The notes below the pieces were generated by a model. The model had not been told where the DNA came from. It did no database searches and was given only the letters and a program-made list of their open reading frames with translations. Source: Acidobacteriota bacterium (lineage in GTDB: Bacteria > Acidobacteriota > Terriglobia > Terriglobales > Acidobacteriaceae). From it: DNA of 59,340 bases. Position 1 is the first letter of the stretch, and each line of letters opens with the position of its first letter. The stretch is taken from contig QIAB01000031.1 in the NCBI GenBank assembly GCA_003225455.1, positions 1 through 59,340 of the forward strand, read 5' to 3'. The translations under genes were made by a program, and so were the position numbers. Shown here in pieces: positions 5,265 through 54,486 of the stretch.

Positions 5265-6182
5265 TTAGCGTTTCGAGTGTGTACTCTGATTCATGGTGAG
5301 GAGCACCGTTTGCCCGAGACGTTCAACTACAGCGACATCCCCTTCATCGAACGCGAAGGGAACGTTCGAAAACACCTCAAGCAGTCCGATGACTTCGCGT
5401 TCATATTGAACAGGCGCGGCGAGGATTGACCGGATGCCCAGATGCTTACAACTTTCGGTGTTCACCCGTGGATCGGTTTCTGCATCGTCACAGCGCAGAG
5501 CCTTGCTGCTGCTAACGCACTCGCCAGAAAAGCCTGAGTTCACATCCAGCTTCGAGCCTAATGCTGGTGCGTTCCTGCCAACACTGGCGCGGCACATCAT
5601 AGAGCCGTTGTGGGCAAGCGCGATGGCGGCCCCAGTTCCGCGAGTCAGAGAGCAAGCACGCGCGCTGATCAGCCGCAGCGCAAGATTCAGATCAGAACCA
5701 AGAGAGCTGAACTCGTATTGGATCGTCGTGGAAGCGGGCTTGCCTGCCGCCGCGGTCTCCGGCTCCAGGCTTATAGCCAGCGGCTCACGGATTTCATTTG
5801 TGGCGAAAGCGGCCAGTGCAGATTCGCCCAACGTAAGCTTGGGTGCCTTGCGGCTAGGACTGTTGTCGTTAACTGTGAGCCATTGCTTTAGGCGCTCTCG
5901 TGCTTCTTCTGGCAGATCGGAGAAGCGCACCCCGGCGCGGCCCAGAGCGTCCGCCCAGGCAACGTAGCCGGTCGTATCGAGTTGCGTTGCGTCGGACAGA
6001 TTGAGATGGAGTGCAATGCGGCGGTTGGGTTGCAGCGGAGGCGCCGTCTGCATCCCCAGCCCTTCTTCGCTGAGGTCGAGAATCACTCCGCCGGTGACGC
6101 CGTCAAAACTGGCAAACGCCGGCGTATGAACTCTGTGACGCAGCGCATGCCGCCGGTCTGAAGTGATCTCGTTGCCCGCCAC
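5265..6182 (-). CDS. PilZ-GAF two-domain protein
   Basis: A 305-residue cytoplasmic protein. The N-terminus carries a PilZ domain with the c-di-GMP motif pair: an Arg-rich RRHALRHR near residue 10 and DLSEEGLG near residue 36. After a linker (about 105-155) a GAF domain follows (LNLALRLISARACSLTRGTG through AAPVQYEREVIGLLEVFS, about 165-295). The combination suggests a c-di-GMP effector with a small-molecule or redox sensing module. No output domain is seen, so it probably acts through a protein partner. There are no operon partners. Confidence 0.85.
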   Translation of the reverse strand: MAGNEITSDRRHALRHRVHTPAFASFDGVTGGVILDLSEEGLGMQTAPPLQPNRRIALHLNLSDATQLDTTGYVAWADALGRAGVRFSDLPEEARERLKQWLTVNDNSPSRKAPKLTLGESALAAFATNEIREPLAISLEPETAAAGKPASTTIQYEFSSLGSDLNLALRLISARACSLTRGTGAAIALAHNGSMMCRASVGRNAPALGSKLDVNSGFSGECVSSSKALRCDDAETDPRVNTESCKHLGIRSILAAPVQYEREVIGLLEVFSNVPFAFDEGDVAVVERLGQTVLLTMNQSTHSKR

Positions 6183-6270
6183 TTGCGCAGCTCCGTCTCG
6201 CTGACGCGGAAAATACGACCTCGGAGCGGAATCGGGAAGGGCACGAGCGTACTCGCGCCACTTTGGCCCC

Positions 6271-6442
6271 TACATTGTCATTCCCAGCAGGCTTCAGCCT
6301 GCGAGGAATCCGCTTTTCGTCATTTTCCGCAGACTGCTAAAGAACATCATGGAGAGAAAACGGTTGCGGGAAAAGTACATGGCAGGGTTCGTGGTGTCGG
6401 CCCACCACATCTTGCGTAGGGGCGGGTGTCCTCACCCGCCCA
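6271..6442. repeat. Spacer with two dispersed repeats
   Basis: The gap between the PilZ-GAF gene and the M2 peptidase end holds a family A repeat at 6271-6340 and a hairpin repeat GTAGGGGCGGGTGTCCTCACCCGCC at 6416-6442. The second belongs to the family seen at 9369-9400 and 49796-49910. Confidence 0.6.
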
Positions 6443-33652: not shown

Positions 33653-34387
33653 TTAGAAGGGGCGGACTTTTTCGTATGCCCTTCCTCGACTCCAGGCTCC
33701 ATCGAAGCCAGGCGCCAGGGCATCACGCATCTGCAACCGGGCGCGTGACAGCCTCGTTTTCACGTTTGCCTCTGAAAGGCCGAGTGCTTGGGCGGTTTCG
33801 GTGATGTTCAGGTGCTGTATGTCGCGCAAGATCAACACGGTTCGGTATTTCTCGGGAAGAGAACGCAGTGCTTCGTTGAGCGCCTTTCGCAATTGTTTCT
33901 GTTCCAAAGTCTCCGATGGTATTTCACGCCAGTCTGCAAAGTCTTTGGGAATGTAGTCGCCTTCCTCGCTACATTGGCTTTCATCCAGAGACTCATATAG
34001 GTGGCGTCGGTCCTTGCGCAGCTTCATTTTCGCTTCATTCATGGTGATCTGGATGACCCACGTGCTGAACTTGGATTCCTGGCGAAAGCGCGAAAGATTC
34101 TTAAACGCCTTCAGTACTGCCTCCTGGGCTACGTCTTCTGCATCCGCTTCATTTCTTACGAGCGACAAAGCAGATAAATAGATTACGCGCTCGTAGGGCC
34201 GCACTAGATCATAGAATGCCCCAACATCGCCCGCTTGGATGCGCCCGATGAGTTCGATTTCGCTTCTCTCTGATTGTTTCACGGCACCTCTGACTTGGAC
34301 GCCGGATCGCGAAATGACGGGGTAATCCGCCTGCGGCCCAGCCCTAGCCAGCTTCTTGGCGTCGCTTTGACTTCGCAGCATGGCCAT
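33653..34387 (-). CDS. ECF sigma factor
   Basis: 244 residues. Sigma region 2 (GAFYDLVRPYERVIYLSALS, then DAEDVAQEAVLKAFKNLSRF) and region 4 (LPEKYRTVLILRDIQHLNIT, AQALGLSEANVKTRLSRARL). The tail APGFDGAWSRGRAYEKVRPF is a subgroup signature also found as a remnant at 34807-34885. The N-terminal ~35 residues before region 2 are extra. Likely partner anti-sigma proteins: the two zf-HC2 genes around it. Candidate regulator of the adjacent ten-gene operon (inference). Confidence 0.93.
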   Translation of the reverse strand: MAMLRSQSDAKKLARAGPQADYPVISRSGVQVRGAVKQSERSEIELIGRIQAGDVGAFYDLVRPYERVIYLSALSLVRNEADAEDVAQEAVLKAFKNLSRFRQESKFSTWVIQITMNEAKMKLRKDRRHLYESLDESQCSEEGDYIPKDFADWREIPSETLEQKQLRKALNEALRSLPEKYRTVLILRDIQHLNITETAQALGLSEANVKTRLSRARLQMRDALAPGFDGAWSRGRAYEKVRPF

Positions 34388-34488
34388 CTGGTGCCTTTCC
34401 TGCGGGAATGCTTTTTCAGATATTCAAGTGTAAGACGGCGTACATCGCAATTGGATACGAGAAACTCTTTGTCGGGCAACGCATGGCT

Positions 34489-34806
34489 TCAGCGTTTCTT
34501 GGCCTGCCGGCCCGAGAGGTGATCGTTCAGCTTTTTGTACAATTTCTGACCAGCACCCGCGGGAAGCTCGAAGGCTCTGCCGTCGCCGACAAGGCTAACC
34601 ACATTCCTCGTGCCGTTGAGAACGGCGCTGCAGTGGGCGCAATTTTTGAAGTGCGAGGCGAGGCCAGATCGAAGTCCAGGATCCACTTCGTCGTCGAGAT
34701 AATTTGAGATCTGCCGCCATACTTCTTCGCAATCGATTTCTATGGGTTTTTCCGCCACTTGTGCTGCTCCGTTCCCAGCTAGAATCCTGCCTCCGCTCTC
34801 GTTCAC
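34489..34806 (-). CDS. zf-HC2 (anti-sigma-like) protein, copy 2
   Basis: 105 residues from GTG at 34806. Zinc site CEEVWRQISNYLDDEVD ... HFKNCAHC, then LNGTRNVVSLVGDGRAFELP, a close relative of copy 1. The reading frame is open upstream into a sigma-factor tail (34807-34885), so the true N-terminus could be longer. It sits about 100 bases upstream of the ECF gene on the same strand. No membrane segment. Confidence 0.8.
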   Translation of the reverse strand: MNESGGRILAGNGAAQVAEKPIEIDCEEVWRQISNYLDDEVDPGLRSGLASHFKNCAHCSAVLNGTRNVVSLVGDGRAFELPAGAGQKLYKKLNDHLSGRQAKKR

Positions 34807-34885
34807 GTCACAAAGCTTGATTTCATATTCTCGGCCTTTCTTCCAGGCTCCGTCAAAGCCAGGTGCACGCGCATCGCGTGCACTT
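34807..34885 (-). pseudogene. C-terminal remnant of an ECF sigma factor
   Basis: In frame with and just upstream of zf-HC2 copy 2, the translation reads ARDARAPGFDGAWKKGREYE. This matches the C-terminus of the neighbouring ECF factor (MRDALAPGFDGAWSRGRAYE) at most positions. The rest of the sigma gene is gone and is replaced by the SnoaL-like gene, whose stop lies at 34884-34886. This is a relic of a former sigma/anti-sigma gene pair. Confidence 0.75.
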
Positions 34886-35384
34886 AAACAACCTCTCCGA
34901 CTTTCGACCGCCTCCCGGGCACGGAGCGGCGAGGCGCCGAAGCTCGCCTGCTTGACATCTCTGCCAGGACCTCTTTAGGAGGCATCTGCGGCTGAACGTC
35001 CACATTATCGAGGAAAATCGCGATCCTCCATCTTTCTTCAGCATCTTTTTGCCAGATTTCCAGGTATCGTGTGCGTGTGGTGATCGGTTTTCCACCGTTC
35101 TTGGGTGTTAGCGTGAGCCGGTGCCAGCCCCAGTCGAAAGCCCACGAACCGTGAACTCGAATGGAGATGATGGTGACTGCCAGTTGCGCCTTGTAACGTG
35201 CGAAGAGTTTTTTCAGCCGGTGCTTAAGCACTGCCTGCGCTTCAGAGCCGTAGAAGGACGCAAGGCCGGCCGACATGTCGCTGTATCCGTCAGCAAAAAC
35301 GGACAGGACTCCATTCACATCCCCCTTGTTGTAGGCATCCCGTAGCTTTGTCTTTGCCAACCGAATGGCGTAGGTATCTTCCAT
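34884..35384 (-). CDS. SnoaL/NTF2-like protein
   Basis: 166 residues of the NTF2-like cone fold (DUF4440/SnoaL type): KLRDAYNKGDVNGVLSVFAD, then YGSEAQAVLKHRLKKLFARY and EIWQKDAEERWRIAIFLDNV. No signal peptide. The Arg/Ser-rich C-terminal 25 residues (SSRRASAPRRSVPGRRSKVG) are atypical and lie where a sigma gene was truncated, so the tail may be a junction product. Role unknown. Confidence 0.8.
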   Translation of the reverse strand: MEDTYAIRLAKTKLRDAYNKGDVNGVLSVFADGYSDMSAGLASFYGSEAQAVLKHRLKKLFARYKAQLAVTIISIRVHGSWAFDWGWHRLTLTPKNGGKPITTRTRYLEIWQKDAEERWRIAIFLDNVDVQPQMPPKEVLAEMSSRRASAPRRSVPGRRSKVGEVV

Positions 35385-35453
35385 GATATCTCTCAGGCTT
35401 TTGGCTTATTCCTCGACAGCGGGCTCTCCCCCCGGACAGATCAACATCGACAC

Positions 35454-35574
35454 TCACGGAGAAATTCCCGGAGTATTTAGCCGGATTGTAGAGGTCGGTC
35501 TTCGCACAAAGATATAGCCTTTTGCCGTCATCGTCACCCCAGGCCATGTCGTGCGGATGCCCCGGCCCCGTCTT
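35454..35574 (-). pseudogene. C-terminal remnant of an SMP-30/gluconolactonase gene
   Basis: The frame beginning GPGHPHDMAWGDDDGKRLYL matches the last blade of SMP-30/gluconolactonase proteins (AWGDxDGKTLYI). Shifting frame once after DLY then gives TIRLNTPGISP and a stop at 35454-35456, the usual family ending (YRIRLNIPG). A stop codon precedes the fragment at 35575-35577. So about 40 terminal codons of a lactonase survive with one frameshift. Upstream to 35662 nothing else is recognisable. Confidence 0.75.
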
Positions 35575-35662
35575 TCAATCTCATCAATGACTTCGGGGAG
35601 GAAGTAATTTTTGTCCCCGGACGTGCGTCTTTTCTTGCCCTTCCCGCGTATGTATCGGTAGC

Positions 35663-36259
35663 ATGAACGCGGCTGCCTGCTATTTCGTGCGTGCGATGGC
35701 GGACGAAAACACCGAGATCGCTCATGGACTTCGACGTCGCGATCCCGAACTGCTCGACCGCTTGATCGAGGAGTACCAACACCGCCTTCTGCGCTACCTC
35801 ATGTATCTGACTGGCCGCCGCGACCTCGCCGAGGACTTCTTCCAGGAGACCTGGGTCCGCGTGCTTGAACGTGGCAGCCAGTACGACGGGCGTCATGAGT
35901 TCAGCACTTGGCTTTTCACCATTGCGCGGAATCTGGTCATCGACCACCTGCGCCGCAAGCGGCCAGCGAGCTTCGACAGCCTGGCAGATCCCGATGGTCT
36001 GGCGCCGTTCGACATCGCGGCCACCGCGCAACCTTCGGCGTTTGACACGACGGTTCAACGCGAGCAGAACGAACAGATTTCTGCTGGCATGCAGCATATC
36101 GCAGCCGAATACCGCGAAACCCTGGTGCTTCGTTTCCAGGAAGGGATGTCACTCGAAGAAATTGCCAATGTGACCGGCGCGCCGCTGGGCACGGTGAAAT
36201 CGCGGATCTACCGCGGCTTGAGCGCCCTGCAGCCGTGGTTGAAAGGAGCCCGCTTATGA
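35663..36259 (+). CDS. ECF sigma factor
   Basis: 198 residues. Region 2: LLDRLIEEYQHRLLRYLMYL, DLAEDFFQETWVRVLERGSQ, FSTWLFTIARNLVIDHLRRK. Region 4: YRETLVLRFQEGMSLEEIAN, GAPLGTVKSRIYRGLSALQP. A start at 35696 (MADENTEIAHGL) fits the family equally well. Its stop overlaps the next gene's start by four bases (ATGA), the normal arrangement for a sigma factor and its anti-sigma. Confidence 0.93.
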   Translation: MNAAACYFVRAMADENTEIAHGLRRRDPELLDRLIEEYQHRLLRYLMYLTGRRDLAEDFFQETWVRVLERGSQYDGRHEFSTWLFTIARNLVIDHLRRKRPASFDSLADPDGLAPFDIAATAQPSAFDTTVQREQNEQISAGMQHIAAEYRETLVLRFQEGMSLEEIANVTGAPLGTVKSRIYRGLSALQPWLKGARL

Positions 36260-36768
36260 ATCCTGATCTTATGAACTCCGATGTTCATGAACGTGCGCGG
36301 CTGATGATCGCCTTGTTTGGCGAAGAAAGACCCGGCCCGGAAGAACTTTCCAACGCGGAGCGATCGTGGCTGGCCGCGCATCTGGAGTCTTGCGCATCAT
36401 GCCGCGAGTTCGCAGAGAACTCGCGTGAGACGATTCGCTTGCTGCGCGCGATTCCAATCACGGCGGGCGAACGTCTCGTATCTACGACACAAATGCGCGT
36501 GCGCCAGCGGGCACAGGAGTTGCAGCGCCAGCAAGAACGGTTCTGGGTTGTCTGCGTTTGCTGTGCAGCAGTGACGCTCTCCACTCTCGTCACCACGCCA
36601 GTGCTGTGGCGCGGGTTTGCATGGATGGGCGAGCAGGCACGGCTTTCCCCGCCGGTGTGGGAAGGCGGCTTTGTCGTGTTCTATCTGATGCCGGCGGTCT
36701 TGGCCGGAATTCTTCTGCTTGCGCGGGGGACTTTTCTGACGGATCACAACGGCTCATATCAGGATTGA
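36256..36768 (+). CDS. Membrane zf-HC2 anti-sigma factor
   Basis: 170 residues: zf-HC2 site HLESCASC near residue 45, then two membrane segments (WVVCVCCAAVTLSTLVTTPV and FVVFYLMPAVLAGILLLARG). The layout is that of an anti-sigma factor holding the upstream ECF factor at the membrane. ATG at 36256 overlaps the sigma stop. The extracytoplasmic part between the two segments is short. Confidence 0.88.
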   Translation: MNPDLMNSDVHERARLMIALFGEERPGPEELSNAERSWLAAHLESCASCREFAENSRETIRLLRAIPITAGERLVSTTQMRVRQRAQELQRQQERFWVVCVCCAAVTLSTLVTTPVLWRGFAWMGEQARLSPPVWEGGFVVFYLMPAVLAGILLLARGTFLTDHNGSYQD

Positions 36769-38598: not shown

Positions 38599-39798
38599 TC
38601 AATGGTGGTGAAAACTGGAGTCAAAGGTCAGGATTACTCCTAAAGCCAAGAGATGTTGTGCTGGCTTCAGACCAGGAACTCCAGGCCGCACATCGCCATC
38701 ATTAAAAAATCCGCCACCAGGTCCGCGCGAATCATCCCAGCGATGTTCAAGCCGCACGATGACATTTGCTTGCCGATAGGGAATGCGGTACTCGATCGTG
38801 TTGGTCACAGCTTTAACGGTCTGGGAGAATCCGGTCCAGCGGCCGTTACGATCCCAAGCGACTTCAGGACGCACGGTCGCGCTCCAGTGTTTGTCGACTA
38901 TCCAGTGCATCGGCATCTGAGCTGACATCCACAGAGCGCGCGGATTTCCGGCCACAGCAACTTTTTCTTCTGAAACCTGGTACTCGAACGCAACGGTAGC
39001 CGGATCTCGCTTCCACTCCACAATGCTGTCGGACAGGAATCGCCAAAACTGGAGTGAGGTTCCCGAGTGGTGCGGCCCGTAGAGGACCGTCTGTTTCATG
39101 CTCAAGCGCTCGTTCGGCTTGTAAGCAACCTGGCCGCCGGAACTCGGGACATCGTTCGCGTGCGCGAGGTGCCAATAACCGCTGATCACAAATAACGTCC
39201 CGGTCAGCCTTGTGGTAAGCGGATATTGAGCATTCACGCCCAACATCAGATACGGCGTGAAATCAGCCCCCCACGGACGCGTGTAATTGAAGTTGTCTTT
39301 GGCGTAGAGCGAGTCGTAACCGATGAAGCTGCTGAAGATTCCGCCTTGTATGGTCAGTCCCTTTCCTATCGGGGCAAGGTAGGAAATGTCAGTGGGGCCG
39401 AGATGCCGTAACCACTTGGCGCCGTCAAGATTCGGTGCGGTGGCAGAAAATCCGAAAACCTCTGAGTCCTTGCCTGCTTGCAAGGTTATCTCAGTCCCCC
39501 AGCGCGAGCTATCCGACGGCGTTTTTCTCAGATAAAGAGCGGTCATATTCAAATCCGCCTCGTTTACGTGAAATGTCGTGCCTCGGCTGCGGAACAGGTG
39601 ATTCGCGGGATAATTAAAATCGTGCATGTATCCAGCATCAATGAATCCGCCGTATTGCCATGTTGACTGCGCTGAGGAACCCGATTCCTCCGGAAGCGCG
39701 GCCGGAACCTGTCCCATCGCGAACCTATCGGCGAACGACATGACAATCATGACAAGCAGCAGTGAGTTCGTTCTGGCGATCCTGCCCCCGGTTCGCAT
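38599..39798 (-). CDS. BBP2-type outer membrane beta-barrel porin
   Basis: 399 residues. Signal peptide (NSLLLVMIVMSFADRFAMGQ), then a beta-barrel with alternating aromatic strands (WQYGGFIDAGYMHDFNYPAN, TFHVNEADLNMTALYLRK, ANVIVRLEHRWDDSRGPGGG) and a C-terminal aromatic strand. The pattern (GFIDAGYxxDFNxPxNH, FxLNQA-like region) is that of the BBP2/OmpL-like porin family, often found by potassium transport genes. Directly upstream lies a candidate KdpE site (39875-39900). Confidence 0.8.
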   Translation of the reverse strand: MRTGGRIARTNSLLLVMIVMSFADRFAMGQVPAALPEESGSSAQSTWQYGGFIDAGYMHDFNYPANHLFRSRGTTFHVNEADLNMTALYLRKTPSDSSRWGTEITLQAGKDSEVFGFSATAPNLDGAKWLRHLGPTDISYLAPIGKGLTIQGGIFSSFIGYDSLYAKDNFNYTRPWGADFTPYLMLGVNAQYPLTTRLTGTLFVISGYWHLAHANDVPSSGGQVAYKPNERLSMKQTVLYGPHHSGTSLQFWRFLSDSIVEWKRDPATVAFEYQVSEEKVAVAGNPRALWMSAQMPMHWIVDKHWSATVRPEVAWDRNGRWTGFSQTVKAVTNTIEYRIPYRQANVIVRLEHRWDDSRGPGGGFFNDGDVRPGVPGLKPAQHLLALGVILTFDSSFHHH

Positions 39799-39874: not shown

Positions 39875-39900
39875 CATTTTTACGAACTTTTTATAACTTT
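39875..39900. promoter_or_regulatory. Candidate KdpE operator upstream of the porin
   Basis: Two tandem 11-bp units, TTTACGAACTT and TTTATAACTTT, lie about 80 bases before the porin start, at the end of the one-TM gene. The unit and 11-bp period match those at 40151-40177 and 42691-42723. Confidence 0.5.
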
Positions 39901-40110
39901 CGCGGCCCATCTTTGCGCTACCGGTCTCCGATTAACGATCTCGCTGAATGGTGATGCATTCCAACGGGAATGACGCCCGGCACGCGTTCTCCTCCCATCC
40001 AAGGAAAGAGCGATTAGGAACCAAATCATGAATCCGGCACCGAGGAGACACACCACGGCGAGCGATATACGTTCCGTATTGGCGATCAAATTCATTTCGA
40101 GAGCCTGCAT
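39880..40110 (-). CDS. Single-pass membrane protein
   Basis: 76 residues with one membrane segment (ISLAVVCLLGAGFMIWFLIA) and a basic cytoplasmic tail. It is between the porin and kdpE on the same strand. Size and position recall small Kdp-associated membrane peptides but there is no sequence basis to call it KdpF. A start at 40095 (MNLIANTERIS) is equally likely. Confidence 0.55.
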   Translation of the reverse strand: MQALEMNLIANTERISLAVVCLLGAGFMIWFLIALSLDGRRTRAGRHSRWNASPFSEIVNRRPVAQRWAAKVIKSS

Positions 40111-40150
40111 GCCGAGTGCTATTCAACACGAGACGGCATAAAGGCCGAGT

Positions 40151-40177
40151 AAAAAGTTCATAAAGAATTTCTAAACG
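40151..40177. promoter_or_regulatory. Candidate KdpE operator upstream of the one-TM gene
   Basis: On the minus strand three adjacent 11-mers read TTTAGAAATTC, TTTATGAACTT, TTTACTCGGCC, about 40 bases before the gene start. The period of 11 bp is that expected for a dimeric OmpR-family regulator. Confidence 0.5.
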
Positions 40178-40339: not shown

Positions 40340-41044
40340 TCAGTCCCCCGGTTCAAAGCGATAGCCCACCCAGGGTTCAGTAATGATGTAATGTGCAGCG
40401 TTCTCGTCGGGTTCGAGCTTCTTGCGTAAATGTCCCACGAATACGCGTAGGTATTCTGGCTGTTCTATGCTGTTTTGGCCCCAGACAGCCCCAAGCAGAG
40501 CACGGTGGGTTATCACCTTTCCCGGGTGCCTCGCCAAGTAGACCAGAAGATCGAATTCCTTGGGAGTGAGCCGAATCTCGCGATCTTTCACTTGAACCGT
40601 GCGACCAGGGATATCGATGCGAAAATCGCCTACCTCAACGAGTGCGGTCTCTTGTTGTTGCGGTGCCGAAGCTCGTCGCAGTGCCGCACGTACTCGTGCC
40701 AACAGTTCGTTAACACTGAAGGGCTTTGTGATGTAATCGTCGGCTCCGGCATCAAGCGCCTCCACCTTGATAGCCTCCTCACCCTTCACTGACAGCACGA
40801 TAATTGGAACACGCGACTGGGTCCGAACGTGGCGGCAGAGTTCAAGGCCGTCCACGTTCGGCATACGAAGGTCCGTGACGATCAAATCCGGCGTCCAGTC
40901 TTTCATGAGCTGAAGCGCTTCCTCGCCATCCGATGCGGTTCGAATTCCGTACCCTTGGCTGGACAGGGTTGTTTTCAGGACGCGGATGATTTGCGCCTCA
41001 TCGTCGACCACAAGGATATTCGGTTTGAGCTCTGAATTGGCCAT
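40340..41044 (-). CDS. kdpE: KdpE-like OmpR-family response regulator
   Basis: 234 residues. Receiver domain with the phospho-acceptor Asp at residue 58 (DLIVTDLRMP) and the switch Lys in DYITKPF; then a winged-helix DNA-binding domain: LTPKEFDLLVYLARHPGKVI, LLGAVWGQNSIEQPEYLRVF, and the family-typical ITEPWVGYRF. Agreement with KdpE is strong in the C-terminus. ATG at 41044 chosen; 41113 would add 23 residues. Divergent from the kinase gene; the two form a two-component pair. Confidence 0.88.
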   Translation of the reverse strand: MANSELKPNILVVDDEAQIIRVLKTTLSSQGYGIRTASDGEEALQLMKDWTPDLIVTDLRMPNVDGLELCRHVRTQSRVPIIVLSVKGEEAIKVEALDAGADDYITKPFSVNELLARVRAALRRASAPQQQETALVEVGDFRIDIPGRTVQVKDREIRLTPKEFDLLVYLARHPGKVITHRALLGAVWGQNSIEQPEYLRVFVGHLRKKLEPDENAAHYIITEPWVGYRFEPGD

Positions 41045-41168
41045 TCGCGCTTCACTTGTTTGTTTCCTCAGCGGTGTTGTTTCTTCCAACCACTGCTCAG
41101 GTGTCTTCGGCATGGTGTGTATTATCCTCAGTCACCAATCACAAATCGAATAGACTACAGTCTCTCGC

Positions 41169-42611
41169 ATGAAACGATCGATGGACAATTCGATCCTACG
41201 CTTTGCTGCGTCGACCGCGATTGTGTCAGCTATCGTTGTTCTGTACTTTCGATGGCTGCACGTGAATCCGACAACTGTCGGATTCAGCCTGTTGCTGGCT
41301 ATTTTGCTGATCTCCGCCGCCTGGGGCCTGCGCTACGCAATTTTCACAGCAATCGTTGCCACAGTAGGTTACAACTATTTCTTTTTGCCGCCACTGTTCA
41401 GATTCACGATTGCCGATCCACAAAACTGGATAGCTCTCTTTGCCTTCCTGGTTACGGCGGTAGTGGCCAGCCAACTTTCGGAACGCGCACGCCGCGGGAC
41501 TGTGTATGCCGACCAGCGTCGGCGCGAAGTCGAAAGGCTCTATGCCTTTAGCCAACAGTTGTGGCTCAGCGAAAACGTGTTCGAGCTGCTGAATATCATT
41601 CCCAAACACATCGTAGACTCCTTCAATGTCAGCGGAGCGGCAGTTTTCCTCGAAGGCAAGCAAGAGGCCTATTTTTTCGATGAGGTCAGCCGATCTTTGT
41701 TTCCGATCGATCAACTGAAGGCCATCAGCGATCGGGGAGAGCCGGTGCTCGACCGGGAACATAGGATCTGCTACATGCCTTTGCGAATGGGGGCGCGATC
41801 GGTCGGTACCCTGGGCTTAGCTGGTTGCGATCTTTCTCGTGAAAGCTTGGAAGCGATTGGCAGCTTGGTGGCGATCTCAATCGAGCGTGCGAATACCGTC
41901 GAAAAACTGACCCGCAGCGAAGCTGCACGGGAGAGTGATCGTTTGCGGTCAGTCCTGCTGGACTCGGTCACCCACGAGTTCCGAACGCCGTTGACCGCAA
42001 TCAAGGCATCCGCAGAAACGCTGCTGTCCGACATTGAGCTGGAAAAGCCACAGCGCGAAGACCTCCTGCAAGTCATCAATGAAGAAAGCGACAGGCTTAA
42101 CCGGCTTGTGGGAGAAGCCGGAGAAGTAGCGCAACTCGATTCACATCAGCTTCAGTTTCGCTTTGAGACAGACCAGATTCGGGAAGCCATTGATGCTGCC
42201 ATCAAGACCTCACAATCGGCACTGCGCCACCATCCTATCGAAGTCAAAATTCCGCAGAACCTTCCGCCAGTGCGCATGGATCGTGAACGCATTACTGAAG
42301 TGATAATCCACCTGCTGGACAACACAGGTAAGTACTCCTCGCCGGACACTCCGATTCACATCACCGCCGAGGTGCGAGATTCTGAAGTGGTCACAAGCGT
42401 CGCAGATCACGGTCCCGGGATAGAAGAAATGGAGCAAGAGATGATCTTCGATAAATTTTATCGGGGACGGAATCAGCGCATGATGATCCAGGGTACTGGA
42501 ATGGGATTGGCGATCGCCAAAGCGATCATCGAGCTACACGGTGGAAAGATCGGAGTCACAAGCCAACTGGGCCGAGGATCACTCTTCTATTTTTCCCTAC
42601 CTATGGCATAA
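41169..42611 (+). CDS. KdpD-like sensor histidine kinase, short form
   Basis: 480 residues. Four membrane helices of a DUF4118 (KdpD) type: about 8-100. Then a GAF-like region (about 115-245), HisKA with the phosphorylated His 269 (VTHEFRTPL) and a HATPase domain (LLDNTGKYSSPD, GPGIEEMEQE, GTGMGLAIAK). The N-terminal KdpD and UspA domains of the classical ~900-residue kinase are absent. Divergent from kdpE by about 55-125 bases, an unusual order for kdpDE. Confidence 0.88.
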   Translation: MKRSMDNSILRFAASTAIVSAIVVLYFRWLHVNPTTVGFSLLLAILLISAAWGLRYAIFTAIVATVGYNYFFLPPLFRFTIADPQNWIALFAFLVTAVVASQLSERARRGTVYADQRRREVERLYAFSQQLWLSENVFELLNIIPKHIVDSFNVSGAAVFLEGKQEAYFFDEVSRSLFPIDQLKAISDRGEPVLDREHRICYMPLRMGARSVGTLGLAGCDLSRESLEAIGSLVAISIERANTVEKLTRSEAARESDRLRSVLLDSVTHEFRTPLTAIKASAETLLSDIELEKPQREDLLQVINEESDRLNRLVGEAGEVAQLDSHQLQFRFETDQIREAIDAAIKTSQSALRHHPIEVKIPQNLPPVRMDRERITEVIIHLLDNTGKYSSPDTPIHITAEVRDSEVVTSVADHGPGIEEMEQEMIFDKFYRGRNQRMMIQGTGMGLAIAKAIIELHGGKIGVTSQLGRGSLFYFSLPMA

Positions 42612-42918
42612 GGCCCTCTTTTCACCCCGCTCCCGACCTTGCCTCTCGTAAAGAGCTGCTCTGACGCCATCGGTTCTGTTCTGCTAGAGCTTTTATAAAA
42701 TCTTTACGAAATCTTTAGTAAATTTTCATCTGTTCGCCCGTCAGCTCATCGGTCTTGTAAGGAGAGCATCAGCGAGGCACGATCCATTTAGGATATCGGG
42801 TTCCCGGCACGCCGTAGTCAGAGACACGGTCGGCGCAATATTGTCGTTTCTTCAGGACAGCTTGTGGTGAGACCGAGAGGAAACGGACAGGTTTGGTCTG
42901 GGAATTGAGAGACCGTAC
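42612..42918 (+). other. Regulatory spacer before the KUP/KimA-like gene
   Basis: No gene is seen in this 307-base gap. It holds the AT-rich operator candidate at 42691-42723 in otherwise GC-rich DNA. I looked for a ydaO-type c-di-AMP riboswitch and did not find its conserved core. About 190 bases separate the operator from the start codon, so a long leader RNA is possible. Confidence 0.5.
42691..42730 (+). promoter_or_regulatory. Candidate KdpE operator upstream of the transporter
   Basis: Three tandem 11-mers: TTTATAAAATC, TTTACGAAATC, TTTAGTAAATT (42692-42724). This is the clearest of three such sites in the cluster; E. coli KdpE binds a site with TTTATAC and TTTACAC in a similar 11-bp phase. 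Confidence 0.6.
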
Positions 42919-45165
42919 ATGCAAAACCACCCTGGTAAGCACTCTGCGGTTGTGACCGGCGCACAACGAGTGCTGGTCGCTACAACCGCGATGCTCGCGT
43001 TTATCTCTTTTTGGCAGGCCGCGGCCGTCGTACTTAACGACATGGGTTCGTCCGCCTTCTACGCGGGCGCCATTGCGGAACACTTTGTGGGGAAAACTGC
43101 TCCTTGGTTCATTCTGGCGATCATGCTTCTCTCCTATGCGGTCCGAGCGGTCTATATCGAAAGCTCCAGCATGTTTGTGCGTGGAGGCGTATACCGCGTA
43201 GTGAAAGAGGCCATGGGCGGAACGTTGGCAAAGTTTTCGGTTTCGGCCCTGATGTTCGACTACATCCTGACCGGACCGATCAGCGGCGTATCAGCAGGGC
43301 TGTACCTCACCGGTTTGTTGAACGAACTCCTGCACCACGCCTACTCCAATTTCACCCTGCCCACGAACTGGACGGCTGCACTCTTTGCCGCTCTCGTGAC
43401 CATCTATTTCTGGTGGCAGAACATCAAGGGAATTCCCGAATCCAGCGAGAAGGCCTTACGCATCATGTATGTGACCACTGTGATGGTGGTGCTGATGATC
43501 GCCTGGTGCAGCTACACCCTCTGGGTTCGTGGAGCTCACCTTCCGCCCTGGCCGCACCTCTCGAACCTTACCTACTCGAATGATGCCTTGGGCTGGCTGC
43601 GCCACACCTCGTTGCCGTACACCGTCGGACTGATCGGCATTTTGATTGGCCTCGGCCACTCCGTTCTGGCCATGAGCGGCGAAGAGACCATGGCCCAGGT
43701 GTATCGCGAGATTGAGCACCCCAAACTACGGAACCTGGAAAAAGCCGGATTCGTCATTTTTCTTTATAGCCTGATTTTCACGGCGGGCGTGGCATTCTTC
43801 GCGGTGATGATCATCCCCGATTCGGCGCGCAACAATTTCTTCGATAACCCGATCGGCGGGTTGGCAATGTACCTCGTTGGGCCTCTATCACTTCGGCTCG
43901 CGTTCCGGGCTTTCGTGGTAGTGGTCGGTGTCTTGATGCTGGCCGGGGCAGTCAATACCGCCATCGTCGGCTCGAATGGAGTCCTGAATAGGGTCTCTGA
44001 GGATGGAATCCTTCCTCACTGGTTTCGCCACCCCCACCGTCGTTTCGGGACATCCCATCGCATCCTCAATCTTGTTGTCGGCCTTCAGCTGCTCACGATC
44101 TTCTTGAGCCGCGGCAACATTTTTGTTCTGGGCGAGGCATATGCCTTCGGCGTGATGTGGAGCTTCGCCTTGAAGGGCCTGGCTGTACTCGTGCTTCGTT
44201 ACAAGCAACCTGGGGAGCGGGAATTTCGCGTTCCCCTGAACCTGAAGGTTGGGAGTCTGGAGATTCCTCTGGGTCTTGGCTTGATCACAGTCATTCTGTT
44301 CGCCTTATGCATTATCAACCTCTTCACCAAGCAAGTGGCCACGCTTTCAGGAGTTGCTTTCACCATCATTTTCTTTGCGGTTTTCACTGCTTCGGAAAAA
44401 ATCACGAAGAAGCGTGCTACGGCCCATGCCGAACTGGATCAATTCAATTTAGAACCCGGTGCGGACCTCACTCCCGAAACACTCGGCGTCAGGCCAGGAA
44501 ACATCCTGGTTATGGTTCGGAACTACAACACGCTGCATAATCTGGGGGCAATCCTCGACCGGGTCGATCCTCGTAAACAGGACGTCGTGGTGCTCCATCT
44601 TCGATTTCTGCACGGCGTCGGTGAGTACGAATTGGCACCGGAGCAGCTCTTTAGCCTCGAAGAGCAGGTGCTCTTCACACGCTCGCTTGAGCTCGCCGAG
44701 AAAAAAGGGAAGACCATCCATCTGGCGGTCGCTGCGGCCACGGAAAAATGGGACGCTATCTTGCGCGCCGCCCAAAGCTTGCAGTCGTCCATGGTTGTTC
44801 TAGGACCTTCTCCCACCAAACCTGTTCCCGAGGAGGCTCGTACCGCCGGTCTCGCCTGGGAGCGTCTGCCTGACCCCAAGCCCCAGTTGACGCTCGAAAT
44901 TCTCTCTCCAAGCGGACAGGAACACGTTTTTTATCTGGGCCCCCACGCGCCCCGCCTCACGCCAAAGGAAATTGATCTACTGCACAGCATCTGGCTTGAA
45001 CTCAGTAATGATGTTGCTCCCGAGGAGATTCATCACCACGACATCGTCCATTTCGCTCTTGACGAGCTCAAACAGGAGCTTAGCAATACGGAACGAGAGC
45101 AAGTTCTCCGGAGGTTGTGCCAGCACCTCAAAGAAATCAACCAGCGGCGCGTACCGCCCGTTTAG
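42919..45165 (+). CDS. KUP/KimA-like potassium transporter (APC superfamily)
   Basis: 748 residues. A 12-helix APC-fold core (about 15-470) is followed by a cytoplasmic UspA-like domain (about 500-620) and a unique helical C-terminus. The first helix contains NDMGSSAFYAG: Asp 41 and Tyr 48 with the same spacing and G-S-S context as the KUP motif GDIGTSPLY, whose Asp and Tyr bind K+; KimA has the same spacing. The GEETMAQVYREIEHP loop is APC-like. Annotation pipelines would call it an amino acid permease; context (kdpE, KdpD-like kinase, operator) supports K+ uptake. Confidence 0.8.
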   Translation: MQNHPGKHSAVVTGAQRVLVATTAMLAFISFWQAAAVVLNDMGSSAFYAGAIAEHFVGKTAPWFILAIMLLSYAVRAVYIESSSMFVRGGVYRVVKEAMGGTLAKFSVSALMFDYILTGPISGVSAGLYLTGLLNELLHHAYSNFTLPTNWTAALFAALVTIYFWWQNIKGIPESSEKALRIMYVTTVMVVLMIAWCSYTLWVRGAHLPPWPHLSNLTYSNDALGWLRHTSLPYTVGLIGILIGLGHSVLAMSGEETMAQVYREIEHPKLRNLEKAGFVIFLYSLIFTAGVAFFAVMIIPDSARNNFFDNPIGGLAMYLVGPLSLRLAFRAFVVVVGVLMLAGAVNTAIVGSNGVLNRVSEDGILPHWFRHPHRRFGTSHRILNLVVGLQLLTIFLSRGNIFVLGEAYAFGVMWSFALKGLAVLVLRYKQPGEREFRVPLNLKVGSLEIPLGLGLITVILFALCIINLFTKQVATLSGVAFTIIFFAVFTASEKITKKRATAHAELDQFNLEPGADLTPETLGVRPGNILVMVRNYNTLHNLGAILDRVDPRKQDVVVLHLRFLHGVGEYELAPEQLFSLEEQVLFTRSLELAEKKGKTIHLAVAAATEKWDAILRAAQSLQSSMVVLGPSPTKPVPEEARTAGLAWERLPDPKPQLTLEILSPSGQEHVFYLGPHAPRLTPKEIDLLHSIWLELSNDVAPEEIHHHDIVHFALDELKQELSNTEREQVLRRLCQHLKEINQRRVPPV

Positions 45166-45340: not shown

Positions 45341-45434
45341 TGGCGGAGAGGGAGGGATTCGAACCCTCGATACAGGTTTTAGCCCGTATAACGGTTTAGC
45401 AAACCGCCGCCTTCAGCCTCTCGGCCACCTCTCC
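45341..45434 (-). tRNA. tRNA-Ser (anticodon GCU)
   Basis: The minus strand folds as a 94-base class II tRNA: acceptor GGAGAGG paired with CCTCTCC, discriminator G and an encoded CCA end, anticodon GCT in GGTTTGCTAAACC, a long variable arm (ACGGGCTAAAACCTGT) and TTCGAATC in the T arm. All parts are intact. It stands alone between the transporter and the ECF gene. Confidence 0.95.
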
Positions 45435-45556
45435 GCGGCGTGTTTTCACGAGTCTAGCACAGTCGGCTAATTCGTCTGCTGCACGATTGCTCACCTTGGG
45501 TTCCTTTCGCCCCCTAAAATTTGTGTAACTTTGTTCGATCTGCTGCGTACTGCTTT

Positions 45557-46180
45557 ATGGACGCCGAGAGCTACAGCGCGAAAGGACCACAGCCTCGCGA
45601 TGGCAAGGCCAAGCAGATGGAGGAGCTGGACCTTGAGAGCGTAATAGGGCGCGCACGGGGCCACGATGTGGCAGCCCTGGAGCAAATCTATCGCCGCTAT
45701 GTCCGGCGCGTGTTCGGTTTGTGCCGCTACATGCTGGACTCACGGGAGAGCGCAGAGGATGCCACCAGCGAAGTCTTCCTCAAACTACAGCGCTCAATCG
45801 AGAGCTACGACGGTTCGATACCGTTTCCAAGATGGCTGCTGCGGGTGGCTGGCAACCAATGCATTGATGCTTTGCGGCGCCAGCGGCGTGGACGACAGGT
45901 GATTGTGGAAGTTGAAGAGGGAGCTACGGTCGTTGAGGCACGCAGTGCGGAGCCGTCACCGCTGGGTGCTGTCATGAGCAAGGAAGAGAGGGCGCAGGTG
46001 CGGGATGCCATCGCACGCCTGCCCGAGAACTATCGTCTACCGCTGGTCCTGCGCTATTACAGCGAGCTGAGCTATGACGAAATCGCGCAGCAGTTGGACC
46101 TGCAGAGGAACTACGTGGCAGCGCTGATATTTCGTGCCAAGCAGGAGCTGCGTCGGAAACTGGCTCACAGGAGCAAGTAG
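45557..46180 (+). CDS. ECF sigma factor
   Basis: 207 residues from the ATG at 45557 (45521 is an alternative). Region 2: ALEQIYRRYVRRVFGLCRYM, SAEDATSEVFLKLQRSIESY, FPRWLLRVAGNQCIDALRRQ. Region 4: LPENYRLPLVLRYYSELSYD, EIAQQLDLQRNYVAALIFRA. Followed three bases later by a zf-HC2 membrane protein that is its likely anti-sigma. Confidence 0.92.
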   Translation: MDAESYSAKGPQPRDGKAKQMEELDLESVIGRARGHDVAALEQIYRRYVRRVFGLCRYMLDSRESAEDATSEVFLKLQRSIESYDGSIPFPRWLLRVAGNQCIDALRRQRRGRQVIVEVEEGATVVEARSAEPSPLGAVMSKEERAQVRDAIARLPENYRLPLVLRYYSELSYDEIAQQLDLQRNYVAALIFRAKQELRRKLAHRSK

Positions 46181-46183
46181 TCT

Positions 46184-47803
46184 ATGGAATGTTATTCGGA
46201 ACAGACGTGCACCATCTTCGTGGACGGCGAACTAACCGTGGACGAAGCGCGGCGCCTGCGAGACCACCTGGCCAGGTGCCAGCGCTGCCGAAAACTGGTG
46301 GACGCACTGCGCGCTGAGAACCGGGTTCTGGGCGAAAGCCTGCACGAGCTTCCGGAAGAAGCAGCCGGCCCGGTGGGCTTCCCTCGCTTGCGGTTGTCCT
46401 GGGTGTGGGGCGATCTGGCGGCGCTGGCCGCGGTGCTGGCGCTAGTGTCGATCTTTTTCGCTTGGGTCGACAAGCTGAGAATTCCGGAAGCGCTGGAATG
46501 GCTCAATCCCTTCAGCGCAAACGGCCTCACCAACCTGATCTTCAACCTTTCGTACAACTTCGCACACGGAGGTACTGTCATGCTGGCTGATTACGCTGCG
46601 GTGGTTGGGGCGCTCTTTGCGGTGTTGGGCGGCGGCGCACTGCTGCTGGGACGCCGATGGCGGCTACACCCGCCGGGTCTCCACTTGTTGGTCGTGCTGC
46701 TTGCGTTGTCCTTGCCCAGCTTTGCCCTGGAGCGGCGTCACGGTGAGTTTGTCACCGTGGCAGCGAACGAGACTGTGGACGACACCCTTTTAGCCGCCGG
46801 CAACACAGTGCGAGTGGAGGGCGTAATCAATGGGGACTTGCTGGCTTTTGCCCGGACCGTGGAAGTGCGGGGCACGGTCAAGGGCGACTTGATAAGTATT
46901 GCCAAGAAAACTGTGGTGACCGGAAGCGTGGAAGGCCGCATCTACACCTTTACCCAGTCGCTCGACCTGAGCGGGCAATTGGGCCACAGCATCTACGGCT
47001 TTGCGCAGTCCTTGCGTGTGGATGACCGGAGCCGCGTGGGCGAGGGTATCGTGGCTGCGGCTGGCGATGTCAGCCTTGAAGGCGAGGTGAAGCGCAGCGT
47101 GGACATGCTGCTCTCCGGCAACGTCGATGTGAGTGGCAGCATCGGCCGCGATCTGAGCGTGTCCGGAGTTAGCCCCGGACGTAGCCTAATGCTGACGAAC
47201 ACGGCCCGGGTTGGCGGCAACCTAAGCGCTCGCGTGCGCCAGCTGAAAGATGTGCACATCGCCGACGGCGCGACCATTGCGGGCAAACGTGACATCCAGG
47301 TGCAAGTGAGGAAGAGCCACTTCACGCGCCCCAGATTCTACTTCCACCAAGCTGTCTGGCTCGCTTCCGCCATGCTGGTGGGATGGCTGGGCCTGGCTCT
47401 GTTTCCTGGCTTCTTCCAGGCCACGACTCAGGCGGTGGGCTCAGGCTGGCGCAGCCTCGGGTTGGGAGTTGGCGTTTTAGCGGGCGTGCCGCTGGTCATG
47501 GTCGTGGCAGCCATCACGCTGGTTGGCATCCCGGTCTCGCTAATGTTGCTCGCCCTGTATCTAGCAGCGATCTACTTGGCTAAGATTTGGGTTGGAGCCT
47601 TCCTGGGGCGGATGCTTCTGAAGCCATCCGGAGTCACGAAGCGCGATTGGATGCTGGGACTCTTTGTGGGCCTGCTGATCCTCACCATCGTTGGGTTCAT
47701 CCCCTATCTTGGCGGGCTGGTCCGCTTGGGTATGGTTTGCCTGGGTTTGGGAGCGTTCGCCTGGCAGCTTTATCGGGCTTCACGACCGACAATAGCGGCC
47801 TGA
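46184..47803 (+). CDS. zf-HC2 anti-sigma fused to a bactofilin-like membrane protein
   Basis: 539 residues. Zinc site CTIFVDGELT ... HLARCQRC (about 9-36); three membrane segments (about 75-95, 130-155, 163-185); a periplasmic right-handed beta region (about 190-385) with bactofilin-like repeats (VRVEGVINGDLLAFARTVEV, RGTVKGDLISIAKKTVVTGS); and a C-terminal four-helix membrane part (about 395-530). The fusion joins sigma control to a polymerising beta-helix domain. It follows the ECF gene by three bases. Confidence 0.85.
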   Translation: MECYSEQTCTIFVDGELTVDEARRLRDHLARCQRCRKLVDALRAENRVLGESLHELPEEAAGPVGFPRLRLSWVWGDLAALAAVLALVSIFFAWVDKLRIPEALEWLNPFSANGLTNLIFNLSYNFAHGGTVMLADYAAVVGALFAVLGGGALLLGRRWRLHPPGLHLLVVLLALSLPSFALERRHGEFVTVAANETVDDTLLAAGNTVRVEGVINGDLLAFARTVEVRGTVKGDLISIAKKTVVTGSVEGRIYTFTQSLDLSGQLGHSIYGFAQSLRVDDRSRVGEGIVAAAGDVSLEGEVKRSVDMLLSGNVDVSGSIGRDLSVSGVSPGRSLMLTNTARVGGNLSARVRQLKDVHIADGATIAGKRDIQVQVRKSHFTRPRFYFHQAVWLASAMLVGWLGLALFPGFFQATTQAVGSGWRSLGLGVGVLAGVPLVMVVAAITLVGIPVSLMLLALYLAAIYLAKIWVGAFLGRMLLKPSGVTKRDWMLGLFVGLLILTIVGFIPYLGGLVRLGMVCLGLGAFAWQLYRASRPTIAA

Positions 47804-47862: not shown

Positions 47863-48760
47863 TCACAAAGTGCTCTTCGCAGCAGAAGAGAACAATTCTA
47901 CGTGAATGTGCGTTCGCCGCACTTCGTGGCGGCTCTTCAGCGCCTGATGCGGACGCTGCTGGTTGAACTCGCGGCGGAACTCGTCGAAGCGACGCTGTTG
48001 GGCGCGCCGAGTGGCGGCCATCTCCGCCATGGTCTCTTGCTGCAGGGTCAGATGCATGCGCTCGTGTCGTCCATTCTGCTCGGGATGCGCCGGCTGAATG
48101 CGTTCCGGCCGGATGCCCAGCTTCATCCACCACACTGCCAGCCGCGACAATCCGGCGATGGCGCAGGAAGCAAAGGGCGCGCCGTTGTCGGTGCGTATGG
48201 CTTCCGGCAAGCCATACTCGCGAATGTCGGCTTCGAAGATGGCTTGCACGCGGGCCGTGTCCGTTTTCTCCACCGCCTGGCAGCCAAGCAGGTAGCGACT
48301 GCAGGCGTCGCTGATGGTCAGGGGATCGATGCGAGTTCCGTCCCGGGTGCGGCTCCAACCCTTGAAGTCGCCGCGCCAGACGCGGTTGGGGACATCCGCC
48401 GCGGCGAAGGGAACTGCGCAGTGGTCGACGCGGCGCCTTTTCTTGCCCGCGATTACCAGACCTTCGCGACGCAACAGTTCGCCCATCGTGCTCGCCGCCG
48501 GCCAGCTTCTCTGGGCTTGCTCACGCTCCAGAACCGCTTTCAGTTTGCGCGGTCCCCAGCGCATGTGCGCCTGCCGCAGTTCTAAAATCTGGCGCTCGCT
48601 CTCCGGCGGCGTCTGATAGGGTGGCGACGGGGCGCGCGACTCTGCTCCTGTAACCCTTCCCAGCCCGCGCGCTCATAGCCCGCCCGAGTCTTGTATCCCG
48701 CCTGGCGCGAGATCCTTCGCCTCAATCCCGACTTTTCCGCAGCCTGTTCAGTCGTGCCCT
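47863..48760 (-). pseudogene. IS481-type transposase, frameshifted and truncated
   Basis: The DDE integrase core is visible: WRGDFKGWSRTRDGTRIDPL, TDNGAPFASCAIAGLSRLAV, HPEQNGRHERMH. The N-terminal helix-turn-helix part (SRQAGYKTRAGYERAGWEGL, then RAPRRHP) lies upstream in another frame; continuity YQTPPESERQILELRQAH resumes near 48610 in the main frame. The C-terminus is cut after RPHQAL and replaced by unrelated sequence. No clear terminal inverted repeats were found. The 47804-48774 gap contains nothing else but a family A repeat end. Confidence 0.8.
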
Positions 48761-53565: not shown

Positions 53566-54486
53566 TTCTCAGTTTCCACTTACACGTCAAAGAGTCAGCA
53601 TCAGAACTAGCAAGCCATCTCATAAATCGGTTTTGAAAGGGCACGGCTTCAGCCGTGCCGCTCAGAGCCGCCAACAATGCGGGCTTCAGCCCCTGAGGGG
53701 TAGCTGATTTTACTTTCTTGGTTCATTATGAAATAGCTTCTAGTATCGCGTCCCAAAACTTCGCGCCACAAGTTAGAAACGATTTGAAAGGGCGCGGGTC
53801 TTCAGACGCGCCGTAAGTTCCGGCACAGGAGTAATGTGGCTTTAGAGTCTGTGTGAGAACTCAATTTCGGATTGCCCGGGTGGAATAAAACCGCCAGAAT
53901 CCAGCCGCGAAGCGGCGACCGAAAAAAAGCCGAGGGCGCAAGAGGCTGTTACGAAACCCCGCCGCAATGCTGAGCGATGGGACAAGACCTGCGTCAGCCG
54001 AGAAGCGCGGCATAGGAAAGCCCGGCACATGAGTGCCGGGAAAGCGAAAGTGGGAAATCAGAGTCGGCTTTCAGCCGACGCCACAGGTTTCGTAACAGCC
54101 TCGCAAGCCCTGGGCGAAAGTGGAAAATGAGCCAGCCCCGTAGTGAGTGCCTGAGAACTAGAAGTTGCGGTTGACGGTGGAGCAAAATCCTCCAAACTCC
54201 AGCCGCGGAGCGGCGCGGAATACGTTAGCCGAGGACGTAAGCCCTGGGTAAAGTGGGAAACGAGCGCGAGTCCCGTTAGAGTCTGTGTGAGAACTCAATT
54301 TCGGATTGCCCGGGTGGAACAAAACCGCCAGAATCCAGCCGCGAAGCGGCGACCGAATGCAGCCCAGGGCGTAAGCCCTGGGCGAAAGTGGAAAATGAGC
54401 AAGCCCCGCAGGGGCGGAAGAAGCCCGCTTCGGGAAGGGCACAACTTCAGTCGTGCCAATAAGTCCTTTCCTTATGTTAGCCGGAC
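53566..54486. repeat. Repeat-rich spacer between rimI and tsaB
   Basis: No gene is supported here. An 82-bp direct repeat occurs at 53842-53923 and 54276-54357 with one mismatch; a diverged third copy lies around 54146-54215. Hairpin repeats of the TTTGAAAGGGCnCGGCTTCA type lie at 53631, 53781 and 54433. A perfect 17-bp inverted repeat (53942-53958 and 54086-54102) bounds a 161-bp segment. Open frames across this region are translated repeats, not genes. Confidence 0.8.
53942..54102. mobile_element. MITE-like element bounded by 17-bp inverted repeats
   Basis: GAGGCTGTTACGAAACC at 53942-53958 and its exact complement GGTTTCGTAACAGCCTC at 54086-54102 bound 161 bp with internal palindromes (AGTCGGCTTTCAGCCGAC). 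Size and structure are those of a miniature inverted-repeat element; no transposase or clear target duplication is seen. Confidence 0.5.

Follow-up and report, generated by a model that had tools for sequence, protein, structure and literature searches.

Probable KdpE boxes beside a candidate KUP/KimA-like transporter gene in an acidobacterial cluster without the Kdp pump

The window analysed here, a stretch of 59,340 nucleotides from an Acidobacteriota draft genome (one assembly of 195 contigs, 95% complete and 4.5% contaminated), holds a cluster of genes for a porin, a response regulator, a histidine kinase and a permease, together with three arrays of 11-bp repeats (Table 1). A KdpE-like regulator had been recognised in this cluster by an earlier, sequence-only reading of the window, and it is present in the open reading frame at 40340–41113; its proper start is probably the ATG at 41044. 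The best NCBIfam model for the protein was KdpE (219.8 bits, below the equivalog cut-off of 325), and KdpE ranked second and third among its PDB matches. The kinase combines a DUF4118 membrane region with HisKA and HATPase_c domains. It aligned to positions 408–882 only of the 895-position KdpD model, with 188 bits against a cut-off of 1123, and the kinase protein gave no match to PF02702, the KdpD N-domain. The one-TM ORF gave no Pfam or NCBIfam match at E ≤ 0.001. By eye, the porin ORF of a relative, genome G109, begins with a TM peptide that resembles it. We considered the one-TM ORF and the porin as one broken gene and rejected this; the two share a frame, yet four stops lie between them.

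Table 1. Features of the cluster and their positions in the window.
Feature	Positions	Strand	Evidence or remark
BBP2-family outer-membrane porin	38599..39798	-	PF07642, E 8.4e-47
Third KdpE-type site, two units TTTACGAACTT TTTATAACTTT	39879..39900	+	reads away from porin
Small ORF with one TM segment, next ORF downstream of the four-unit box	39880..40110	-	
TTGAAT, -10-like, at offset 49-54 of the four-unit box	40121..40126	-	
Four-unit KdpE box, counterpart of the relatives' kdp-operon box	40132..40175	-	
KdpE-like OmpR-family response regulator	40340..41044	-	PF00072, PF00486 above cut-off
About 19 codons from the start of the otherwise deleted KdpD-N gene, joined in frame to kdpE	41057..41113	-	seen against the KdpD-N proteins of G109 and G152 and against G109 DNA
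DUF4118 histidine kinase, C-terminal half of KdpD	41169..42611	+	PF13493, PF00512, PF02518
KdpE box before the transporter: half-sites TTTATAAAATC TTTACGAAATC, 11 bp each	42692..42713	+	
TTTAGTAAATT, third unit before the transporter; contains TAAATT at 42719-42724	42714..42724	+	likely -10 hexamer
Candidate K+ transporter of the KUP/KimA kind: APC-superfamily permease of 748 aa whose C-terminal domain is cytosolic	42919..45165	+	PF13520

Several other features lie around the cluster. A tRNA gene (45344–45434, minus strand) stands directly behind the transporter, and an Acido-Lenti-1 RNA was found at 54337–54382 on the minus strand (56.1 bits, Rfam RF01687). Judged by eye from the translations, pairs of sigma-factor-like and anti-sigma-like ORFs flank the cluster at 33653–36768 and 45521–47803, and an ORF that by eye resembles an integrase-core transposase lies nearby (47863–48564, minus strand).

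Three tandem 11-bp units had been read before the transporter, and they are indeed there on the plus strand at 42692–42702, 42703–42713 and 42714–42724 (TTTATAAAATC|TTTACGAAATC|TTTAGTAAATT). The half-site TTTA(T/C)A recurs at 11 bp, exactly as TTTATA in the first transporter unit and in the form TTTACG in the second. The phased units described near 40151–40177 proved to be a four-unit array on the minus strand, which starts at 40175 and reads TTTAGAAATTC TTTATGAACTT TTTACTCGGCC TTTATGCCGTC. The units near 39875–39900 had been placed before the porin. A site does exist there, at 39879–39900, accompanied by an in-phase TTTGCG at 39912–39917, but its placement did not stand, as it lies on the plus strand, is thus antisense to the porin, and points away from it.

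We examined how specific these repeats are to the cluster. The pattern TTTANNAANNNTTTANNAA had 3 matches in the window, where 100 dinucleotide shuffles averaged 0.00, and the same number in the whole 5-Mb genome, all in the cluster; the backwards pattern had 1. With ≤1 mismatch allowed, a refined pattern, TTTAYRANNTYTTTAYRA, likewise matched the genome at 3 places, every one in the cluster. At ≤2 mismatches it returned 23 sites (5 in the cluster) compared to 36 for the reversed pattern, which indicates that elsewhere in the genome nothing rises above chance. With a matrix whose letters came from the kdpA-upstream DNA of 80 other genomes, the top three sites of the window were those at 40175 on the minus strand (40.3 bits) and at 42692 and 39879 on the plus strand (33.9 and 22.8 bits). 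The best place in the window outside the cluster scored 4.2 bits, and the reversed background reached a maximum of 19.97 bits over 865,992 positions. The seed of this matrix was a consensus from the window's cluster and the transporter orthologues, so the matrix tests are incompletely independent of the cluster. Within the matrix, the half-site positions were conserved at the 11-bp period and several spacer positions were not.

Among the 200 genomes of the order, 35 contained the refined pattern, a consensus of the cluster and its transporter orthologues, at 42 exact places in all, compared to 10 places for the reversed pattern. Seventeen of these strict sites lay within about 3 kb upstream of kdpA. 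The others were assigned to KimA-type genes (4), transporter orthologues (2), the window's own cluster (2), kdpE/KdpD-N (1) and a porin (1), and 15 had no assigned K+ gene, a count that includes the uninspected G092, G096 and G124:C51. In 80 kdpA regions, hand-picked rather than random, a three-unit score of at least 16.5 was reached in 60, compared to 1 of the 80 read backwards; at a score of at least 15 the numbers were 77 and 20. A matrix trained on the reversed regions found a single site at 16.5 and 79 at the relaxed threshold of 15. The relaxed threshold would thus manufacture a motif, and 16.5 was used instead. Ten of the 80 regions already had a strict site near kdpA (G124, G160, G149, G008, G105, G006, G069, G037, G032 and G028); with these left out, 50 of 70 still reached 16.5. 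When held out by genus, 79 of the 80 kdp regions (33 genera) scored above 12 bits and 72 above 20 bits, compared to 3 and 0 of the reversed regions.

The box was less general at the transporter. Among the 74 orthologues with usable upstream DNA, 17 had an upstream box of more than 10 bits, compared to 1 when reversed, and the other 57 scored ≤10 bits, the close L200 (86%) among them. It was absent in four of the eight closest transporter orthologues in the order (L004, L005, L007 and L008). None of 14 generic paralogues of 51–54% identity (L255–L271 minus L257, L264 and L269) reached 15, and no site was found at the transporter paralogue in the window's own genome. In four genomes the box precedes a KimA-type gene, and the one such protein that was searched matched KimA with E 1.2e-94. 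The expectation that the repeats recur in the promoters of related genomes therefore held upstream of kdpA, at the KimA-type genes and at a minority of the transporter orthologues, and failed at the remaining ones. KdpE-like arrays of the form TTTACGATCTTTTTATGA at G072:C7:1353–1370 (L303) and G182:C16:6116–6133 (L105) adjoin an OmpR-type regulator about 42% identical to the window's KdpE, hinting at a related regulator that uses similar sites. A strong box array was also seen at G107:C4 (L297), 5459–5470, upstream of same-strand ORFs of 443 and 1049 aa.

A -10-like T..AAT (3 of 4 letters) accompanies many of the boxes: 53 of the 80 kdp regions have it at offset 49, counted from the first unit, compared to 20 of 80 at the next-best offset and a mean of 3.4 at the remaining offsets. 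Removal of whole units from this geometry gives the series of offsets 27, 38 and 49, and a -10 stood at one of these in 6 of 18 transporter boxes (17 orthologues plus the window); ten shifted registers each had a -10 in at most 1 of the 18. Three of the six -10-bearing boxes are those of the window, where the match is partial, and of its close relatives L193 and L194. A generic sigma-70 scan passed no promoter. In L193 and L194, TTTAGTAGATT stands at the position of the window's third unit. We believe that TTTAGTAAATT is probably the -10 rather than a third half-site, which explains why TTTAGTAGATT carries a deviating GT. The claim of three KdpE units before the transporter thus survives for two half-sites, the third unit being better read as the -10 hexamer.

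Comparison with E. coli bears on which regulator may use these boxes. In the accessible part of PMC3264566, the KdpE half-sites are given as TTTATA and TTTACA, 5 bp apart (half-site TTTA(T/C)A), and R193, R200 and T215 as important for DNA binding by E. coli KdpE, with R193 conserved in KdpE orthologues only. All three residues are present in the window's regulator, where YLR, HLR and ITE are conserved at a chain offset of +2. The E. coli repeats had been said to share the phase of those in the window. This was confirmed in E. coli K-12, where TTTATACTTTT|TTTACACCCCG stands in 11-bp phase, begins 99 bp before kdpF and agrees with the half-sites described in that source (PMC3264566). This E. 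coli site scored 9.6 bits with the acidobacterial matrix and was still the top place on its strand of the 5-kb locus.

The absence of kdpFABC genes had also been remarked on. For KdpA it extends to the whole assembly (0 matches at 95% completeness), compared to its presence in 176 of the 200 genomes of the order, and the correction to be made is that the pump was lost from a cluster that relatives keep. PF02702 had no match anywhere in the assembly either. In G109, whose transporter is 88% identical, a single contig carries kdpA, porin, kdpE, KdpD-N, kinase and transporter; one box stands ahead of the porin ORF and another ahead of the transporter. In an alignment of the window with G109 DNA, kdpE and the kinase aligned and the KdpD-N gene was cut out between them. 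The stretch 42688–42729 formed an isolated conserved island with G109 (42 bp, 90%) in unaligned intergenic surroundings, and 40150–40177 did so with G152 (28 bp, 89%) in an otherwise unaligned spacer. Arrays matching the window's four-unit box were present in G109 and at L194 (genome G200, 87%), and the latter locus has kdpE, KdpD-N, kinase and transporter together with both boxes. KdpA is present in the G200 genome, likely on the same contig as this cluster. In G152, G187 and G182, kinase, kdpE, porin, kdpA, KdpD-N and box share one contig, which by eye also carries kdpB- and kdpC-like ORFs.

Across the order, KdpA and KdpD-N are lost together. PF02702 was missing in 20 of 24 KdpA-less genomes compared to 1 of 176 with KdpA, in a table where five genomes were placed by elimination and for which the Fisher value ignores kinship. 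This joint absence fits the description, in the accessible part of PMC11018627, of the KdpD N-domain as a serine kinase that acts on KdpB and is often a separate chain in Acidobacteriota. The regulator was kept (E ≤ 1e-50) in 12 of the 24 KdpA-less genomes, the window's included. Cassettes of kinase, regulator, box and transporter were also found in G198, which has neither KdpA nor PF02702, and in G169, which has both; the G169 box scored -2.6 bits with the matrix, and the nominal ORF start there cuts the array. G202 and G203, of unknown completeness, gave no KdpA match and have a box and a KdpE-like gene at the transporter. At G104:C32 (L288), in a genome without a KdpA match, short kdpB-like pieces lie beside KdpD-N and kinase (5752–6283, minus strand); this is perhaps a kdp cluster in decay.

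The genes left in the window look maintained, although a very recent loss of the pump would look alike. The frames of regulator, kinase and transporter are intact, with dN of 0.07–0.16 to pump-bearing relatives. Between the window and G109 or G200, dN was 0.134–0.164 for the regulator, 0.071–0.102 for the kinase and 0.073–0.090 for the transporter, in a comparison where the dS values are near saturation. Measured to G200, dN from the window and from G109 was 0.134 and 0.121 for the regulator, 0.102 and 0.089 for the kinase, and 0.090 and 0.067 for the transporter.

The permease is likely a KUP/KimA-like K+ transporter, as judged from its fold model and site residues. A model built from 48 sequences reached a pLDDT of 80.3; an earlier one from 14 sequences was poor (62.7) and was set aside. 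The best fold match was KimA (8b70, Z 42.4, 523 aligned, rmsd 17.5). A second KimA structure, 6s3k, gave Z 39.8 (422 aligned, rmsd 2.8 Å), and ApcT scored lower, at 36.9. The fold by itself could not distinguish K+ from amino acids as the substrate. The KimA ion-site residues listed in the accessible part of PMC6994465, D36, Y43, D117, T121, T230, E233 and Y377, correspond to D41, Y48, D114, T118, S253, E256 and Y408, and these residues and S122 were invariant in 48 of 48 aligned rows. The only change at the ion site relative to KimA is S253, a Ser for Thr. E. coli Kup aligned with the same or similar residues there. D114, T118, E256 and Y408 were also paired by hhalign, which matched the transporter profile to KimA homologues with 96.1% probability (E 3.4e-9). 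For the TM1 pair D41/Y48, which hhalign did not cover, the pairing depends on MAFFT; the structural start offsets agree for 8b70 and 8b71 (5) and differ for 6s3k (3). Pfam K_trans gave no transporter match at E ≤ 10, and phmmer and hmmsearch against the PDB returned no KimA chain and no K+ transporter; the link to K+ transporters came from the profile-profile, fold and residue comparisons only. A search of this genome for KimA homologues, which had no positive control, was negative at E ≤ 1e-20. Counting paralogues, members of the permease family are present at E ≤ 1e-80 in 168 of the order's 200 genomes.

The sites could in principle belong to another regulator of the OmpR/PhoB family and lie near kdp genes by chance. 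Similar arrays do stand beside other OmpR-type regulators of 42% identity (G072:C7 and G182:C16), and a good part of the strict sites (15 of 42) lacks an assigned K+ gene. The box nevertheless recurs at kdpA in 33 genera, at KimA-type genes and at promoters next to kdpE, and the PhoB half-site as given in PMC3264566, TGTCA(T/C), differs from the TTTA(T/C)A of KdpE, which makes this quite unlikely. An even less probable reading, in our estimate a very slim chance, takes the repeats for AT-rich DNA of a promoter or UP element that has no dedicated regulator. Such DNA would share their AT-richness, their place next to promoters and the -10-like third unit; it would not account for the lack of any other genome site at ≤1 mismatch, or for half-sites conserved at an 11-bp period beside spacer positions that are not.

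Two further explanations concern the missing genes. Boxes and regulator might be decaying, functionless leftovers of the lost Kdp system, which we regard as unlikely. In its favour, both the pump and KdpD-N have been lost, the window is in dN slightly further from G200 than G109 is, and a truncated KdpD, according to the accessible part of PMC2714519, responds to K+ limitation and fails to repress at higher K+. On the other hand, no place in the window scores higher as a kdp-type site than the boxes do, the three frames are intact with low dN (with the reservation about very recent loss made above), and G198 has kinase, regulator, box and transporter without KdpA or PF02702. It is distinctly unlikely that a misassembly of the draft accounts for the missing KdpD-N and kdpABC. 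With 195 contigs and no sister genome such an error is conceivable, but the locus is internal to a contig of 114.7 kb, its junction keeps the reading frame and falls near the gene borders, and neither family was found anywhere in the assembly.

We consider it highly probable that the repeats are KdpE boxes of an acidobacterial potassium regulon. On this reading the cluster has lost the pump and the KdpD N-domain and retains its kinase, KdpE, boxes, porin and transporter. The consensus box consists of tandem 11-bp half-sites, TTTAYRANNTY. The KdpE regulon, put forward as putative, is well supported by comparison, through the conservation of the boxes and their agreement with the E. coli half-sites. 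What was observed is sequence, conservation, geometry and the missing genes; from these we infer binding and phosphorylation of KdpE and K+ as signal and substrate. The ancestral cluster would have resembled that of G109, with kdpA, porin, kdpE, a separate KdpD-N, a KUP/KimA-like transporter and, transcribed divergently, a histidine kinase of the KdpD type, and with one box before the porin and pump genes and one before the transporter. In E. coli the KdpD N-domain is a serine kinase whose target is the pump. The lineage of the window would then have lost the pump genes and the KdpD N-domain and retained the rest. At low K+ the kinase would phosphorylate KdpE, which would bind the boxes head to tail and recruit polymerase to the -10 hexamer, raising expression of the transporter and probably of the porin. 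Most likely, then, a KUP-like transporter is still driven by a KdpDE system that has lost its pump and the kinase acting on it. An extended version of this reading stands at about even chances: loss of the pump removed the known substrate of the KdpD serine kinase, which was later deleted as well, the kinase–KdpE pair is now the dedicated controller of a widespread acidobacterial family of KUP-like K+ transporters (an amino acid permease according to the models), paired with an outer-membrane porin, and pump-free cassettes arose more than once.

In a literature search outside subscription journals, none of the listed papers, judged by title and start of abstract, dealt for Acidobacteriota with KdpE boxes, with porins linked to kdp or with this family of transporters. 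This analysis adds a KdpDE cluster that loses the pump and the KdpD N-domain while keeping its boxes, the geometry of the KdpE-type box, and the tentative assignment of the permease to the KUP/KimA kind from site residues and predicted fold. The consensus and promoter geometry make the potassium regulon of Acidobacteriota findable by sequence, and an abundant permease family is marked as a likely K+ transporter. The joint disappearance of pump and KdpD N-domain, with the transcriptional half of KdpDE left in place, amounts to a natural experiment.

In its best fold match and ion-site residues the permease resembles the KimA/Kup K+/H+ symporters (as described in the accessible part of PMC6994465). 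It differs from KimA in length (748 compared to 607 aa), in showing 17–19% identity in the structural alignment, and in lacking a Pfam K_trans match. In the relatives of the window the KdpD/Usp chain is a protein separate from the histidine kinase, like the split KdpD of Acidobacteriota and Chloroflexota in the part of PMC11018627 available to us; the window, unlike that system, has neither the KdpD/Usp chain nor its known substrate, the pump. Compared with the E. coli kdpFABC promoter, the acidobacterial matrix from 80 regions shows a periodicity that extends over four units, with the -10 at offset 49, and unlike the E. coli locus the window is without the pump and has one box before a transporter. 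What the two promoters share, on the description of the E. coli one in PMC3264566, are tandem TTTAYR half-sites in 11-bp phase upstream of a K+ uptake operon.
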